Positions 4,502 to 59,068 of a stretch of 59,192 nucleotides of DNA are shown here, piece after piece. Source of the stretch: Candidatus Poribacteria bacterium. Lineage in GTDB: Bacteria; Poribacteria; WGA-4E; WGA-3G. The DNA lies in NCBI GenBank assembly GCA_021295715.1, contig JAGWBV010000062.1, positions 1-59,192 on the forward strand. The letters are read 5' to 3'. Position 1 is the first letter of the stretch; each line of letters starts with the position of its first letter. The position numbers and the translations under genes were made by a program. The notes beneath the pieces are model-generated. The model was not told the origin of the DNA, ran no database searches, and worked only from the letters and a program-made list of their open reading frames with translations.

Positions 4502-4586
4502 CCGTAATGAAATGGAGGGCGGATTTAAGAAACGCAGGTGAAAGATTCAGATTCATGTTGTTTCTCCGCAAGGTATAATTAAAAAA
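4502..4586 (+). repeat. R1 repeat upstream of the IolB-like gene
   Basis: A full R1 copy: left module CCGTAATGAAATGGAGG at 4502-4518 and right module CCGCAAGGTATAATTAAAA at 4566-4584. The right end runs straight into the coding frame of the IolB-like protein. Confidence 0.75.
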
Positions 4587-5240
4587 CATTATACGCCTGC
4601 TGAGGGCTACACTGAAGTTGTAACCCCCGGCGAAATAGGCATCACGAAACTCCATTTCGGAATTCTTAATCTCACCCCCGAAGCGACCTTTTTTGACCAT
4701 TCTGATGATACTGAAGTCGCATTGATTGCGTTAGGCGGGCATTGCACCTTGCTGGTCGGACATAACGGAAACAAAGCGTATGGGGTTTTGGGCGAGCGTC
4801 CGGACGTTTTTCACGGTGAGGCGTGTGTAGCGCATATTCCGCATCACACCACTTATGAGGTTCTCGCAGGCGAAGCGGGAATAGAAGTCGCAGTTTGCAA
4901 AGTTCTATCATACGCCGAATCCGCTGCGATTATTTTGGAGGCAGGGGAGACCGTAGATGAAAGTGAGACGCACCTCAGGATATGGGAAACCGACTTATCG
5001 GGGGAGGTAGATGTAGAGACATGGGATGCGAACGTGATGCTTTCGGGAGAGGAAGCAATCTGTCTGCACAGGTTCCGAGATGCCGATGGCGTTGCGACTT
5101 TCGATATCACGCGCACCGTAGAGACGGTACGCGTGCGATTGTATCACAATGATATATTAGCGGTTCCAGAGCAGGATACCATTGCGGCATTAGATTCCGA
5201 AGGGGTTGGCTACCAGTTGTGGGTGCAGCCAGATTTCTAA
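4578..5240 (+). CDS. iolB: 5-deoxy-glucuronate isomerase-like protein, no AUG start
   Basis: The translated frame matches the KduI/IolB bicupin fold. It starts with HYTPAEGYTEVVTPGEIGIT, continues through FGILNLTPEA, DTEVALIALGG and LGERPDVFHGEACVAHIP, and ends with a second cupin-like half. IolB isomerises 5-deoxy-D-glucuronate in myo-inositol catabolism. No iol partners are nearby. The frame is open from 4542, but no ATG, GTG or TTG occurs before TTG 4722, which would delete the first ~45 conserved residues. The most likely native start, just before His-Tyr-Thr-Pro, sits where the R1 repeat ends in AAAAAA; a TG seems to be missing. Either an ATT codon at 4578 initiates or the gene is damaged. 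The coordinate given is the ATT option. Confidence 0.6.
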   Translation: MKKHYTPAEGYTEVVTPGEIGITKLHFGILNLTPEATFFDHSDDTEVALIALGGHCTLLVGHNGNKAYGVLGERPDVFHGEACVAHIPHHTTYEVLAGEAGIEVAVCKVLSYAESAAIILEAGETVDESETHLRIWETDLSGEVDVETWDANVMLSGEEAICLHRFRDADGVATFDITRTVETVRVRLYHNDILAVPEQDTIAALDSEGVGYQLWVQPDF

Positions 5241-23637: not shown

Positions 23638-24558
23638 TTATTGATTAAAAAACAAAAAATTTGCGAGGGCGGCAAATTCTGTGATGTGCAACGTTTCAGC
23701 ACGCCGCTCTGGAGCAATGCCGAGTTCTTCAAAAGCAGTCCCTAATACCTCCGCCGATGTCAGTCTACTCCTAACTAACGTGTTTTTTAGCATCTTCCGC
23801 CGCGTCCGAAACGCTGTTCGGACGACTTTAAAGAAGAATTCCTCATTTTCAACCGTAACCTTTGGGTTTTCGCGCATTGTCAATTTTAGGAGTGCCGAAT
23901 CCACTTTCGGTGCCGGATAAAAGCTTTCTGGCGGCAGCGTGGCGATGAGGGTCGCGTCGGTCCTATAAGCGACACCGATTGTCAAGGCACCGTAGTCCTT
24001 TCCTCCCGGTTCAGCAACAATCCTTTCTGCGACTTCCTTTTGCATCATCAAGACGCAACTGTGAATCTGTTTGTAATGATCGAGCAGTTTCCACAAGATT
24101 GGGGTCGTAATGCTATAAGGCAGGTTCGCTATAACTTTGTAAGTGAACGATGGACTGGCGGGTTCAAATAATCGGTGGAGTTCCAGTTTGAGGATGTCGG
24201 CGTTAAGGAGTTGAACACGCGAATCTGTTGATTTTTGTATAGCAAGTTTTGGCTTGCAAGCTACACCACTTTCAACAGCAAGTTTTGGCTTGCAAGCTAC
24301 GCCAAAACGCGCTGCTAACGCCTCGTATAACAATTCATCTACTTCAACAGCGATTACACGGTTGGCACGTCGCACCAAAACGTCCGTGAGGCACCCTAAA
24401 CCGGCACCGATTTCTATGACTGTGTCGGTCTCCGTGAGTTCTCCGGCTTCGAGAATAATTTCGAGGGCTTCTGGGTTAACGAGGAAGTTTTGTCCTAATT
24501 GTTTTTTGGGACGGGTGTGATTTAGGGCAAAAAAGTCGCGAACCTGTTGATAGTTCAT
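23638..24558 (-). CDS. rsmA: 16S rRNA A1518/A1519 dimethyltransferase, with in-frame insert
   Basis: A 306-residue KsgA/RsmA that dimethylates two adenosines near the 3' end of 16S rRNA. Motifs: KKQLGQNFLVNPEAL, SAM-binding VIEIGAGLGCLTDVL, acidic VIAVEVDELLYEAL, LLNADILKLEL, and the catalytic NLPYSITTPI. Between the acidic motif and the NADIL motif, residues about 86-109 are an insert that holds GVACKPKLA twice. It is encoded by a tandem palindromic repeat (24232-24303). The protein is longer than the ~270-285 usual for the family, in keeping with an insert. It is the last gene of the gmk-uma2-coaBC-rsmA run. Confidence 0.92.
   Translation of the reverse strand: MNYQQVRDFFALNHTRPKKQLGQNFLVNPEALEIILEAGELTETDTVIEIGAGLGCLTDVLVRRANRVIAVEVDELLYEALAARFGVACKPKLAVESGVACKPKLAIQKSTDSRVQLLNADILKLELHRLFEPASPSFTYKVIANLPYSITTPILWKLLDHYKQIHSCVLMMQKEVAERIVAEPGGKDYGALTIGVAYRTDATLIATLPPESFYPAPKVDSALLKLTMRENPKVTVENEEFFFKVVRTAFRTRRKMLKNTLVRSRLTSAEVLGTAFEELGIAPERRAETLHITEFAALANFLFFNQ
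24232..24303 (-). repeat. Tandem palindromic repeat inside rsmA
   Basis: Two 24-base units containing GCTTGCAAGC, separated by 12 bases, are read in frame as GVACKPKLAVES and GVACKPKLAIQK. Units at 24242-24265 and 24278-24301 are identical over 24 bases. Confidence 0.75.
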
Positions 24559-31103: not shown

Positions 31104-32414
31104 ATGGACGCGGAATTGTGGGTTCCAGAATACGACACGCCAGAGTTATGGCATAAAGAAATCTCACGCCGCTGTTTTGTAAAAGGCGGTATCAGCAGTT
31201 TTCTGGGACTCGTCGCGATGCAGCACTTCAGTTTGAATAGCCTTGCGCAGCTTGAGGGTGTTCTGCCGCGTGCTAAGCACTGTATCGTGCTGTTCATGAG
31301 TGGAGGCGCAAGTCAATTAGACACTTTTGATCCGAAACCCGGCACCAAAAATGGGGGGCCTTTTGCGGCAATCCCAACAAGTGTTGAAGGCATAGAGGTT
31401 TCCGAACACCTCCCGCGGGTGGCAGAGCAGGCGCACCATCTCTCTATTATCCGATCGATGGTTTCACGTGAAGGTAATCATGAACGCGCACGCTATTTGC
31501 TTCATACGGGTTATGCCCCTGGTGGAGCAGTCAGACACCCTACCCTCGGTTCACTTACCTCTTACTACCTTGAGGAGACTCTCTCCGATCTTCCGGGTTG
31601 TGTTAATATTAATTCGCCGACCTACGCCGGCAGTTTCCTTGGGGCAACGCACGATCCGTTTGTTGTCAAAGATCCGATGAAACCTGTCGATGATCTCTCT
31701 TACCCTTCGCAGATGGATACACACCGTTTTCGAGAACGCCTAAAAATGCTTAAGGCGATTGAGGAAGACTTTATCTCGAAACGGACGGGACGCAGCACAG
31801 AGGCGCATGAAGCGATTTACAAAAAGGCGGATCAACTCATTAACTCTCCGAAAATAGATGCGTTTCATCTCAACGAAGAACCGATGGCTGTCCGCGAGGC
31901 TTATGGGATGAATAAATTCGGTCAAGGCTGCTTGATGGCGCGTCGGCTTATAGAGGCTGGGGTCAAATTTGTTGAGGTATCACTGGACGGATGGGATACG
32001 CATGAAAACAACTTTGGGCGGGCGAAAGAACTCCTTGCTCTGGTAGATCCGGCGTTCGCAATGCTCCTGAAGGACTTGGCTGAACGGGATCTCCTTGAAG
32101 AGACGATTGTGCTATGGCTCGGTGAATTTGGTCGCACCCCAAAGATTAACAATAGAGATGGACGTGACCATCATACCACGGGGTGGTCGGCTGTCGTCGC
32201 CGGAGGGGGGACCCGCGGTGGGCAGGTAATCGGAATGACAAATGAAGATGGAACTCAGGTTGCCAGCGGTGCAGTCAGGGTCCCAGATTTATTCGCATCG
32301 CTCTGCTTCGCGCTGGGGATCGATGCTGATAGAGAAAATTATTCTCGCTCCGGACGACCAATCCGAGTCGTTGATGATGGTTCGGTAATAGAGGAGTTGT
32401 TCAAAGTTTTGTAG
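31104..32414 (+). CDS. DUF1501 family Tat-exported protein
   Basis: A 436-residue protein of the alkaline-phosphatase/sulfatase-like DUF1501 family. The N-terminus has a twin-arginine motif (SRRCFVKGG) followed by a hydrophobic segment. Family landmarks are CIVLFMSGGASQLDTFDPKPG, HHLSIIRSMVSREGNHERARYLLHTGY, the WDTHENN motif and VLWLGEFGRTPKINNRDGRDHH. The start is ATG 31104 with GAGGAG 7 bases upstream. The family usually pairs with DUF1800 or PSD1 cytochromes, which are absent here. The TAG stop is formed by the TA target and first G of an inserted MITE, so the C-terminus may be altered. Confidence 0.85.
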   Translation: MDAELWVPEYDTPELWHKEISRRCFVKGGISSFLGLVAMQHFSLNSLAQLEGVLPRAKHCIVLFMSGGASQLDTFDPKPGTKNGGPFAAIPTSVEGIEVSEHLPRVAEQAHHLSIIRSMVSREGNHERARYLLHTGYAPGGAVRHPTLGSLTSYYLEETLSDLPGCVNINSPTYAGSFLGATHDPFVVKDPMKPVDDLSYPSQMDTHRFRERLKMLKAIEEDFISKRTGRSTEAHEAIYKKADQLINSPKIDAFHLNEEPMAVREAYGMNKFGQGCLMARRLIEAGVKFVEVSLDGWDTHENNFGRAKELLALVDPAFAMLLKDLAERDLLEETIVLWLGEFGRTPKINNRDGRDHHTTGWSAVVAGGGTRGGQVIGMTNEDGTQVASGAVRVPDLFASLCFALGIDADRENYSRSGRPIRVVDDGSVIEELFKVL

Positions 32415-32498
32415 TGCTGTGTCAAGTTGAGTTTGATAGTATTGTCAGTTGGGTTGAAGGGATTTTCCCTGTAGGGGCAGTCCCTTGTGACACAGCAG
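32414..32498. mobile_element. MITE-like element R2, copy B (85 bp)
   Basis: Terminal inverted repeats GTGCTGTGTCA (32414-32424) and TGACACAGCAG (32488-32498), flanked on both sides by TA (32412-32413, 32499-32500). The interior contains GGGATTTTCCC and AGGGGCAGTCCCT foldback segments. It is almost identical to copy C at 48226, apart from three extra bases and one terminal mismatch. Confidence 0.85.
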
Positions 32499-41343: not shown

Positions 41344-41470
41344 CCGTAATGAAATGGAGGGGTGTTTTTGCTTGGGCATTTCTTCAGATTTAAGAAAGGC
41401 ACGTCAAACATGGAACCGACTCCATTCCTCCGCAAGGTACAATTAAAAATCCGCAAGGAAAATTAGAAAA
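41344..41470 (+). repeat. R1 repeat before the octahaem cytochrome gene
   Basis: Left module CCGTAATGAAATGGAGG, middle module GTGTTTTTGCTTGGGCATTT, and two successive right modules (CCGCAAGGTACAATTAAAA and a variant CCGCAAGGAAAATTAGAAA). The next gene keeps its own GGGAG site 15 bases further on. Confidence 0.75.
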
Positions 41471-41484
41471 AGGGAGAAAATTTC

Positions 41485-48202: not shown

Positions 48203-48225
48203 AGAGCGGTAGAACAAAGTGCCTA

Positions 48226-48307
48226 GTGCTGTGTCAAGTTGAGTTTGATAGTATTGTCAGTTGGGTTGAAGGGATTTTCCCTGTAGGGGCAGTCCCTGAC
48301 ACAGCAC
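48226..48307. mobile_element. MITE-like element R2, copy C (82 bp)
   Basis: Perfect 11-bp terminal inverted repeats GTGCTGTGTCA (48226-48236) and TGACACAGCAC (48297-48307), flanked by TA on both sides (48224-48225, 48308-48309); the flanking CTAG extends the symmetry. The interior matches copy B throughout. Confidence 0.88.
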
Positions 48308-48335: not shown

Positions 48336-48547
48336 CGCAAGGCGTTAAATGAAGGGGTTAGTTTCATAACGATTTTTGGGTGTCTCCGCCTGCGCCATTG
48401 TTGCAGGCTGCTGTCTTAAGCTAATTTTACATAACCGTAGTCTGTAGCGGAGTGGAAGACGGGTCTACGGAGAGGAACTTGAAGGTCTCCAACCCACCTC
48501 ATCGAACCGCAAGGAATAATTAAAAATCCGCAAGGAATAATTAAAAA
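48336..48547 (+). repeat. R1 repeat before the di-haem cytochrome gene
   Basis: Begins near a lone copy of CGCAAGGCGTTAAA (48336-48349, same 14-mer as at 9932). It continues with GCTGTCTTAAGCTAATTTTA (also at the window end), a diverged left module, and two successive right modules CCGCAAGGAATAATTAAAA. The second ends directly at the ATG 48548. Confidence 0.7.
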
Positions 48548-50062
48548 ATGTCAAGGAATATGCTCGTAAAAATTGCGAGTCTCATCTTAATGGTGGTAAG
48601 TTTCATCGCCTATATTGCGGGGGCATCCGCGTTTCCGATCGCCTCGGAGAATTTATTGCCGTGGTCGGTCTGGTTTTTGGTTTCGGTAATCATAAACATC
48701 ATTTTGTGGTCCAGCGTCATGAAGCTGTTGACGTTTTCACTGGCTGTGATCTGGTTTTATGCTTTTGTCGCGGGACTTGTCCCGGAAAGTTCGACAGCCG
48801 TGAGCGCAACTGAAGTTGATAGGACCGATCCGGAGGGAGCGGCTGAGCAGGGTGCCTTGATTTTTAATGGCAAAGGACAGTGTAGCGCGTGTCATACAGT
48901 GGATACTTCTGCGCCGAAAGGGAGATGTCCAGATTTGACGGACATTGGTATTAACGCTGCGAATCGCATACCCGGTATGGACGCGAAAACATATTTGATT
49001 GAATCGCTATATTTCCCGTGGAACCATCTTGTCCCCGGCTACGGCAAGATTATGCCAGAGATATGGAAAGCTCCGATTGCGCTCACCCAAGCCGAAATTG
49101 AATTCGTTATCGCTTACCTTCAGAGTCTCGGTGGTGAGATTGATCTCACGCCGTTTGATGAACCTATAATAAGACCCAAAGAAGGAACAGTTATTGAAGT
49201 ACTTCCACCCATACTTACCGGTGATCCAGAACTCGGCAAAAAGGTTTTTGTGACGGCGGCGTGTATCTCGTGCCACGCTGTGATAGGTATAGAAAGTCCA
49301 GCTGCAGGTGAGACGAGCACAGAAGATTTTGAAATCGTCACTGCGCCGGACCTCTCTGAAATAGCCGCCTTTAACGACATGCGGTATCTTGAGGAGTCAA
49401 TCCTGAAACCGAGTGCTCAGATTGTGAGCGGTTACGGTGCCGTTATCGTCCGTGCTAACGGAACGACCTATCAAGGAACGCTTGTCTCGCAGGATACGGA
49501 ACAGATTGTCGTCCGAACCAAAACGGCAGACGGCGTTGAAGAGGAGCATACCCTCTTATTGAGCGAACTTGATGATGAACCGATTGAAGAACTTAGCAAT
49601 CTACAAGCAAGAGGTTATTTTACGTTGACGCTAACGCCTACGGATTCGGATGCTCCGGTAAGCGGTGAAATCGTTTCGGAAACCGATGACACTGTGACAC
49701 TTAAGATCGGTGGCGAAGACCGGTCGTTTTCCAAAACAGACGTGAAAAGCCAGATGACTGTTATCACTTTTGATGGTGATGAAATTGTTGGCGACTACGT
49801 TTCAGGCTCGATGGACGACGACGAAATTGTTCTAATCGTTGACGGAAGCGAAGAAATATTTGATACATTTGATCTTGAGGAAGCTACCTTCACCCGTGCC
49901 TCCGGCAAGAAGTTACTGGTCACATCGCCGATGCCCGAAAACTTCCCGCTACTGTTATCGGTATCAGATATGAGCAATTTGCTCTCCTTCTTGAGCACGC
50001 TTACGGGCGCAGCCGCGGAAGCAGTTTCTGACGGGGCAGCGGAGGCAATTCCGGCAGAATAG
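48548..50062 (+). CDS. Membrane-anchored di-haem cytochrome c
   Basis: A 504-residue protein. Three N-terminal spans (residues 6-28, 37-55 and 58-76) are followed by two haem sites, CSACH (Cys112) and CISCH (Cys239). A beta-rich region (about 290-440) follows with ANGTTYQGTLVSQDTEQIVV, the pattern seen in putative haem-binding proteins of planctomycetes and in the octahaem protein upstream. Probable role: membrane-bound relay working with the CydA-like subunit. Its start codon abuts the R1 repeat end. Confidence 0.85.
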   Translation: MSRNMLVKIASLILMVVSFIAYIAGASAFPIASENLLPWSVWFLVSVIINIILWSSVMKLLTFSLAVIWFYAFVAGLVPESSTAVSATEVDRTDPEGAAEQGALIFNGKGQCSACHTVDTSAPKGRCPDLTDIGINAANRIPGMDAKTYLIESLYFPWNHLVPGYGKIMPEIWKAPIALTQAEIEFVIAYLQSLGGEIDLTPFDEPIIRPKEGTVIEVLPPILTGDPELGKKVFVTAACISCHAVIGIESPAAGETSTEDFEIVTAPDLSEIAAFNDMRYLEESILKPSAQIVSGYGAVIVRANGTTYQGTLVSQDTEQIVVRTKTADGVEEEHTLLLSELDDEPIEELSNLQARGYFTLTLTPTDSDAPVSGEIVSETDDTVTLKIGGEDRSFSKTDVKSQMTVITFDGDEIVGDYVSGSMDDDEIVLIVDGSEEIFDTFDLEEATFTRASGKKLLVTSPMPENFPLLLSVSDMSNLLSFLSTLTGAAAEAVSDGAAEAIPAE

Positions 50063-50103: not shown

Positions 50104-50187
50104 CCGTAATGTAATGGAGGACGGATATACGTAAAGGCACTTTATTTATGAAACCTGCCTAACCGAACCGCAAGGTAATATTAAAAG
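50104..50187 (+). repeat. R1 repeat before the 258-residue cytochrome gene
   Basis: CCGTAATGTAATGGAGG at the left and CCGCAAGGTAATATTAAAAG at the right, ending exactly at ATG 50188. An R3 fragment (CCGACGACTGACAACTGA) lies just before it at 50067-50084. Confidence 0.8.
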
Positions 50188-57962: not shown

Positions 57963-58062
57963 CGGAGGTGGATGGAAGGATGGAAGAGAAGACTGGAAGG
58001 ATGGATGGGAGGAAGAGTGGAGATCCAATCTTCCAATCTTCCAACCTTCCTCCCAATTATAG
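57963..58062. repeat. Purine/pyrimidine mirror repeat at the ctaA start
   Basis: The purine tract GGATGGAAGGATGGAAGAGA and TGGAAGGATGGATGGGAGG is opposed by the pyrimidine tract CCAATCTTCCAATCTTCC, AACCTTCCTCCC. The arms can form a foldback. The tract encodes the first ~30 residues in the ctaA frame. Confidence 0.5.
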
Positions 58063-59068
58063 TCCATGGCTTCACAGAACGGCACGCCTCACCGCAGGCG
58101 CAACTTTCTTATTGATTGTCATCGGCGGGATTGTCACAAGTACAGAATCCGGATTAGCAGTGCCTGATTGGCCGACAACCTTTGGGTATAATATGTTCCT
58201 CTATCCACTGTCAGAAATGGTAGGAGGCATCCTTTACGAACATAGTCATCGGCTCATGGGTTCTCTTGTTGGACTTTTGACGGTTGGTCTCTTTGTTTTC
58301 CTTTTGGTGAGAGATTCACGCAAATGGCTGAAATGGCTTGGGCTTGCCGCGCTGGTCGCTGTCATTGTGCAAGGTGTTCTCGGTGGGCTTCGGGTTACAC
58401 AGATTAATCGCAACTTCGCGATCGTGCATGCATGCCTCGCACAAGCGTTCTTTGCTCTGCTTTGCGGAATTGCTTGGTTCACCTCTCGCGATTGGCAACA
58501 GGATAAAGGGGAACCAGACAGGCGATCAGCAATCAGCAATCAGCAGTCGGTAAAGAGGTTTTCGTTTAACAAAAACCCTCTTGCTGAAAGCCGAGAGCCG
58601 AAAGCCGAAAGCCATCTTAAAGCACAGAAGCTGCGGCGGTTAAGCCTGATTACGACATGCCTCATTTATGTGCAGCTCATCTTTGGCGCGATTTTGCGGC
58701 ATACTGGAAGCAGATTGGACGCACATCTTCTCTTCGCTTTCTTGGTTGCCCTGCATATCTTTCTATTGGTAAGACGTTTTCTCAGCATGAGCAGTGAGAC
58801 ACAGAGAATTGGGCAATCGATGCCGATGTTATTGTTGGGTTTGCTTGCGATTCAGTTGATGCTCGGCACGGGGGCATTTTTCGCGAAGCTTACCGCTTTC
58901 GGGGAAACCTTCGCAACCGCACTCACGGTCACGATCACGACTGCGCATGTCGCAGTCGGAGCACTTATGTTGGTAAGCAGTTTTGTGCTTACCCTGAAAA
59001 TCTATCGGTTCACCGATGCATCGGTAGTTGTCGGGGCACCCACGAGGGATGCCTTGCTGACAGAATAA
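57968..59068 (+). CDS. ctaA: Haem A synthase (CtaA/COX15) with in-frame repeat insert
   Basis: An up to 366-residue membrane protein with eight spans; converts haem O to haem A for the aa3 oxidase. Landmarks: GGIVTSTESGLAVPDWPTTFG, HSHRLMGSLVG, VIVQGVLGGLRVTQINRNFAIVHACLAQAFFALL, and in the second half LIFGAILRHTGSR with the later HI and THVAVGAL histidines. Residues about 187-216, in the loop between the two four-helix halves, are encoded by an R3 palindromic repeat (58527-58613). The N-terminal ~30 residues come from a purine-rich repeat; starts at 57980 or 58001 are also possible. It follows coxA by five bases. Confidence 0.88.
   Translation: MDGRMEEKTGRMDGRKSGDPIFQSSNLPPNYSPWLHRTARLTAGATFLLIVIGGIVTSTESGLAVPDWPTTFGYNMFLYPLSEMVGGILYEHSHRLMGSLVGLLTVGLFVFLLVRDSRKWLKWLGLAALVAVIVQGVLGGLRVTQINRNFAIVHACLAQAFFALLCGIAWFTSRDWQQDKGEPDRRSAISNQQSVKRFSFNKNPLAESREPKAESHLKAQKLRRLSLITTCLIYVQLIFGAILRHTGSRLDAHLLFAFLVALHIFLLVRRFLSMSSETQRIGQSMPMLLLGLLAIQLMLGTGAFFAKLTAFGETFATALTVTITTAHVAVGALMLVSSFVLTLKIYRFTDASVVVGAPTRDALLTE
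58527..58613 (+). repeat. R3 palindromic repeat inside ctaA
   Basis: ATCAGCAATCAGCAATCAGC then AGTCGGTAAAGAGGTTTTCG faces AAAAACCCTCTTGCTGAAAG and CCGAGAGCCGAAAGCC. It is read without a stop as a Ser/Asn/Glu-rich loop. Confidence 0.75.

Follow-up and report, generated by a model that had tools for sequence, protein, structure and literature searches.

A heptamer-arm palindromic repeat read in frame within the haem A synthase gene of a Candidatus Poribacteria bacterium

The haem A synthase gene ctaA on contig JAGWBV010000062.1 of Candidatus Poribacteria bacterium (assembly GCA_021295715.1) contains an imperfect palindrome of 95 bp, at positions 58521–58615, that lies in frame in a single open reading frame (ORF) and adds 31 residues to the loop between transmembrane helices 4 and 5 (TM4 and TM5). 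Positions refer to the whole 59,192-nucleotide stretch that was analysed, here called the window. The element is very probably a non-autonomous, nearly genus-restricted palindromic repeat that behaves like the Rickettsia palindromic elements (RPEs), being purged where it breaks a gene and tolerated where it lies in frame in a flexible loop. Copies would land in both genes and spacers; those that disrupt a reading frame would disappear, and in-frame copies in flexible, already variable loops would persist as neutral or mildly costly segments. In ctaA the copy would add a disordered 31-residue linker between two four-helix halves and leave the haem-binding helices intact.

Results

The element in ctaA

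The ctaA gene (57980–59068, forward strand; COX15–CtaA family) is the downstream neighbour of the gene for cytochrome oxidase subunit I and has 362 codons from the ATG at 57980, plus a stop. GTG 57968 and ATG 58001 are alternative starts; a GGAGGT at 57965–57970 (forward strand), about 10 nt upstream of the ATG at 57980, may serve as a Shine–Dalgarno sequence. A 366-codon ORF, from GTG to stop, spans the element with no stop inside it. The product matches the COX15–CtaA profile PF02628 with E = 2.8e-19, the insert notwithstanding, and retains all of the invariant residues Glu87, His88, Arg91, His150, His249 and His323. In the AlphaFold (AF2) model eight long membrane helices have a predicted local distance difference test score (pLDDT) above 90, and the insert forms residues ~181–211, between helices 4 and 5, with pLDDT 50–64. 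From general knowledge of CtaA topology we take this loop to lie on the cytoplasmic side, and the protein is presumably translated and normally active. A sequence-profile search matched PDB entry 8aw5, named haem O oxygenase; a Foldseek search of the model against the PDB gave no significant match and was uninformative.

The termini of the element pair as GGC...GCC. Its left arm (58526–58551, forward strand) consists of four TCRGCNN units (TCAGC/TCGG) that start at 58526, 58533, 58540 and 58547 and encodes SAISNQQSV. The core stem, AAGAGGTTTT / AAAAACCCTCTT with a short loop (58553–58582), is of the AAGAGG...CCTCTT type common to many genomic copies. The right arm (58583–58613, forward strand) consists of four GCYGANN units at 58583, 58590, 58597 and 58604, encodes AESREPKAES and is free of stops because its in-phase YGA codon is CGA. 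The predicted CtaA sequence across the insert includes SAISNQQSVKRFSFNKNPLAESREPK. Predicted RNA folding gave −31.6 kcal/mol (z −4.1) for the coding strand and −42.6 kcal/mol (z −5.9) for the non-coding strand, and none of 200 shuffled sequences folded as stably. The hairpin of the non-coding strand is the stronger because TCGGC pairs with GCTGA via G–U, and that of the mRNA strand is weaker because TCAGC faces GCCGA, which gives A–C mismatches. A search of Rfam at gathering thresholds returned no match anywhere in the window. The initial annotation had described a palindromic repeat at 58527–58613, read through without a stop and adding about 30 polar residues between the two halves of the protein. 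Folding bears out the repeat, its bounds proved slightly longer, the frame is open as described and the number of added residues is exactly 31 (93 nt) relative to the closest insert-free CtaA sequences, those of genomes G024 and G017.

Alignment with the CtaA of relatives, as the initial annotation had proposed, located the insert between ...GIAWFTSRDW and KLRRLSLITT, two conserved blocks, and restricted the heptamer insert to three of 30 CtaA sequences of the genus: G000 (the source genome), G010 and G009. The TM4–TM5 loops of congeneric CtaA that have no heptamers are short. The initial annotation had named a similar loop in unrelated phyla as grounds for rejection; none was found in CtaA of the other phyla examined (Deltaproteobacteria, NC10/Methylomirabilota, Nitrospinota, Planctomycetota and Omnitrophota). 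The window derives from a metagenome-assembled genome, a source in which an assembly artefact could arise, but the independent single-chromosome assembly of G010 (OX639992.1) has the same ctaA insert with its frame open. A decayed pseudogene is likewise at odds with the intact conserved residues and with the flanks of the insert, for which the proportions of synonymous and non-synonymous differences between G000 and G010 (pS and pN) are 0.31 and 0.05, respectively. We give artefact and pseudogene a negligible probability. As a separate observation, CtaA of other Poribacteria (L109 and L117) has an insertion of ~74 residues after LSKTVS that is not repeat-like in appearance.

Copies in the genome and genus

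The four-unit heptamer pattern has 65 matches in the source genome, against 4 for a reversed control pattern. In a 1.62 Mb sample of this genome, made up of contigs and stretches partly picked for carrying a copy, 98 heptamer-array loci were found, 26 of them within predicted genes; the coding fraction of the sample is 0.85 by a simple hexamer gene caller. A few of the 26 are terminal in their genes (window 20854, L168:12559 and L180:18667), and the in-gene arrays of L143 fall in doubtful ORFs. For G010 the figure is 18 of 38 arrays in genes, a fraction biased upward by sampling around genes with known copies. Copies measure ~65–146 bp between the outer heptamers, with a varying number of units, and their consensus ends are about AATGGCNN...NNGCCATT, with inverted ends of ~AATGGC/GCCATT. 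The initial annotation had regarded the repeat as one normally found between genes. Intergenic copies do exist, but the repeat is not solely intergenic, about a quarter of the sampled copies being in genes.

Host genes encode an IleS-like class I tRNA synthetase, PdxA, LpxK, an FtsJ/S4 methyltransferase, an Omp85 protein, a ROK kinase, SpoIIE and CHAD proteins. For all 14 internal cases compared with orthologues from G010, G009, G033 and G024, at least one congener has no heptamers at that loop; the flanks are conserved and the loop is often much shorter (for example, 37 versus 10 residues with and without heptamers in a CHAD protein, and 40 versus 10–12 in a DUF4340 protein). The pattern occurs in all 38 genomes of the genus, the source included. 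Outside the genus, of the 20 further genomes from the family only three have the pattern, with one match apiece, and the rest of the order has none. Our literature search found no paper on such repeats in Poribacteria.

These comparisons also bear on an origin of the loop in place, by slippage of heptamers in ctaA with no inserted element. Heptamer arrays could slip, and unit number does vary between copies. Yet both arms and the AAGAGG...CCTCTT core occur jointly here and at dozens of unrelated sites, and relatives have heptamer-free sites, so that we consider slippage very improbable.

Reading frames

Because seven cannot be divided evenly by three, a heptamer array runs through one and the same cycle of seven codons whichever phase it is read in. 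On its strand, TCRGCNN allows no stop in any phase; in GCYGANN a T at the Y position creates an in-phase TGA if that unit supplies the YGA codon. Intergenic GCYGA units have T in 228 cases and C in 95 (71% T). In coding copies the in-phase YGA codons are CGA in 12 cases and TGA in none, a count that follows from the openness of the ORFs, and the out-of-phase units have 14 T and 9 C. The preferred frame that the initial annotation had suggested looking for did not emerge from the sampled genome: in-gene copies occupy all three phases (11/6/5), and no conserved peptide or ORF is common to the inserted copies. A bias of coding sense towards the stop-free arm (20 versus 9 arrays, p = 0.06) is suggestive only.

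The possibility that the element is designed to code was ruled out. Intergenic copies are open in a fraction of 0.128 of frames, below both control spacers (0.202) and shuffled sequences (0.256), and the element is thus not built to code. Random insertion followed by purging, with in-frame survival of 0.128/3 and 85% coding sequence, would give an in-gene to intergenic ratio of ~0.24; the observed ratios are 8:26 for full palindromes and 26:72 for all arrays. This arithmetic is crude, yet no targeting to genes is required.

Shared copies and the history of the insert

Several results weigh against a simple history of insertion and tolerance. In a ctaA tree calculated with the inserts removed, G009 groups with the insert-free G007 and G001, and the insert-free G024 and G017 lie among G000 and G010. 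The same-site copy in G009 and the absence from G024 and G017 would need loss, parallel insertion or exchange. In seven genes with inserts shared by G000 and G010, synonymous divergence (dS) is 0.18 in the inserts and 0.45 in the flanks, whereas a simply neutral insert dating back to the species split would not be expected to diverge less than its surroundings. No transposase partner was found in a search confined to Y1_Tnp, which returned a single PF01797 gene with no heptamer array in its 3.3 kb locus. No clear target-site duplication was seen either, the empty sites, at ~87% DNA identity, being too diverged.

A possible contribution is the transfer of copies from one species to another at a fixed site, through short recombination tracts or gene conversion, which would make shared inserts younger than their host genes. 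The G009 ctaA backbone is 92–97% identical to that of insert-free G007 across most of the gene, yet it holds a heptamer insert whose right junction, AGCCATCTTRAAGCACAG, matches that of G000, and CATCTT occurs once among 123 element ends. A 36 nt piece of another repeat family (F3, described below) lies at the identical base of the ctaA TM4–TM5 loop in G010 and G033 and is missing from G034, the sister of G033. The low dS of shared inserts points the same way. Against exchange, the G009 insert departs greatly from that of G000 in its left arm and core, the F3 flanks have no clear tract of raised identity, ancient insertion with repeated loss covers part of the pattern, and tree support inside the G000/G010/G024 clade is low (0.16–0.89). 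We regard exchange as possible rather than probable; it would be compatible with the insertion and tolerance of an RPE-like repeat and would supplement it.

The low divergence might alternatively indicate that the DNA or RNA hairpin is itself functional, in mRNA processing, transcription pausing or co-translational folding between the two protein halves, and is selected within ctaA. Between G000 and G010 the ctaA insert differs by two substitutions in 93 nt, both non-synonymous and none synonymous, against the flank pS given above, and the pooled dS of shared inserts is low; shared intergenic copies, too, diverge by only ~0.10. The mRNA strand, however, has the weaker fold, the G009 copy has lost the core stem while its frame is still open, the insert is absent from most congeners, and other shared copies are as diverged as their flanks or wholly replaced, the shared copies splitting into a little-diverged and a wholly replaced group. 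Function of the hairpin is accordingly improbable in our judgement, and an RPE-like repeat tolerated in frame remains the preferred explanation.

Other repeat families

A second palindromic family, F2 (GGAAGATTGG type), spans 57970–58055 and provides ctaA with its start codon and ~20 N-terminal residues. The ctaD–ctaA spacer of many congeners contains an F2 palindrome; in G000, G010 and G009 it extends into ctaA, and an MDEKT-NYSPWLH-like start is replaced by MEEKTGRMDGRKSGDPIFQSSNLPP-NYSPWLH. No in-frame start codon lies between F2 and TM1 in ctaA, the next candidate being a TTG within TM1. A loose F2 pattern has 28 sampled loci, 19 of them in predicted genes, and includes some chance matches. 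The third family, F3 (AGCAAGTTTTGGCTTGCAAGCT), is present as two tandem copies in frame (24234–24304, reverse strand) in ksgA/rsmA (23641–24558, reverse strand); this stretch has no match in five of the seven congeners searched. F3 is also in frame in other predicted genes (L189:10676, L178:16839 and L212:17969), one of them tsaD-like.

In the LpxK gene an F2-like repeat is nested within the heptamer element. Repeat families, including F2, others and the heptamer element, nest or adjoin at L145:6547, L182:19864 and L211:3464, and in G010 a different element can occupy the corresponding intergenic site. An abundant, mostly intergenic repeat ending in CCGCAAGGNATAATTAAAA occurs at 73 loci across the 1.6 Mb sample and lies in the window at 1405–1450, 4565–4610, 41429–41474, 48505–48560 and 50124–50186. 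Two identical 74 bp copies with TGAAGGGATTTTCCCTGTAGGGGCAGTCCCT lie in the window at 32412–32489 and 48224–48301, with a piece also at 1–35.

Discussion

RPEs (Ogata, 2000, 2002) are described as palindromes of ~100–150 bp that occur in spacers as well as within genes, lie in frame in conserved housekeeping proteins and differ from one related genome to another (reviewed in PMC10969869 and PMC2229807). The element resembles them in its length and stable stem-loop, in having intergenic copies alongside in-frame ones in unrelated conserved genes, and in its presence or absence among orthologues. It differs in its heptamer arms, its use of all three phases, the absence of a fixed peptide and its hosts, Poribacteria sponge symbionts with genomes of ~5–6 Mb. 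The likeness to RPEs noted in the initial annotation therefore holds for behaviour (intergenic and intragenic, in frame, patchy among orthologues) and not for a fixed peptide or preferred frame. The element is not classed as an RPE because it belongs to another phylum, has heptamer arms and has no conserved peptide; by analogy with the published descriptions of RPEs, we regard it as an RPE-like protein-coding palindromic repeat. The Wolbachia protein-coding palindromic repeats (Ogata, 2005, as cited in PMC2229807) appear alike in their behaviour in a symbiont, and are likened here by behaviour alone.

Other small repeats were also compared. Intragenic miniature inverted-repeat transposable elements (MITEs), such as ERIC/RU-1, YPAL/RU-2, the 107 bp Correia element and the Coxiella QMITE (PMC2229807, PMC2759123, PMC5896051), are likewise small, non-autonomous and at times fused in frame to ORFs. 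The present family differs in its heptamer arms and in its many mid-gene copies in conserved genes; its ends are inverted, and its empty sites are too diverged for a target-site duplication to be read. Repetitive extragenic palindromes and bacterial interspersed mosaic elements (REP/BIME) are palindromes tagged with GTAG and CGTC (PMC3733652). They share with the present family an abundance of intergenic palindromes, here often directly after stop codons; unlike them, the heptamer element has longer, heptameric arms, no such tags at its ends, most of which read GC[CT]A[TAC]T, and no copy flanking the Y1 gene. Mobilization by a REP-associated tyrosine transposase (RAYT) is unsupported, the lone Y1 gene having no flanking repeat. 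The TAACTGA-type heptamer repeats of marine Beggiatoaceae, proposed regulators (PMC4679880), also have seven-base units in many intergenic sets, but those are direct repeats, whereas here two inverted arms enclose a core and copies are also intragenic.

Rickettsia and Wolbachia are the best-known sources of in-frame palindromic repeats, and here several families occur in one genus. A 2024 review describes the Rickettsia case as unusually frequent and considers it conceivable that other prokaryotes have comparable ones (PMC10969869). A bolder proposal, that several small palindromic families found throughout the genus insert into proteins in any phase, are exchanged at fixed sites among co-resident species and continually remodel the loops of housekeeping enzymes, is in our view unlikely, though it has some chance of being correct. 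With dozens of sequenced species, the genus offers a test of where proteins accept new segments, of the rates of gain, loss and exchange, and of functionalization. The annotation of genes and their start sites in Poribacteria, and the alignment of the proteins, should allow for repeat-derived segments.
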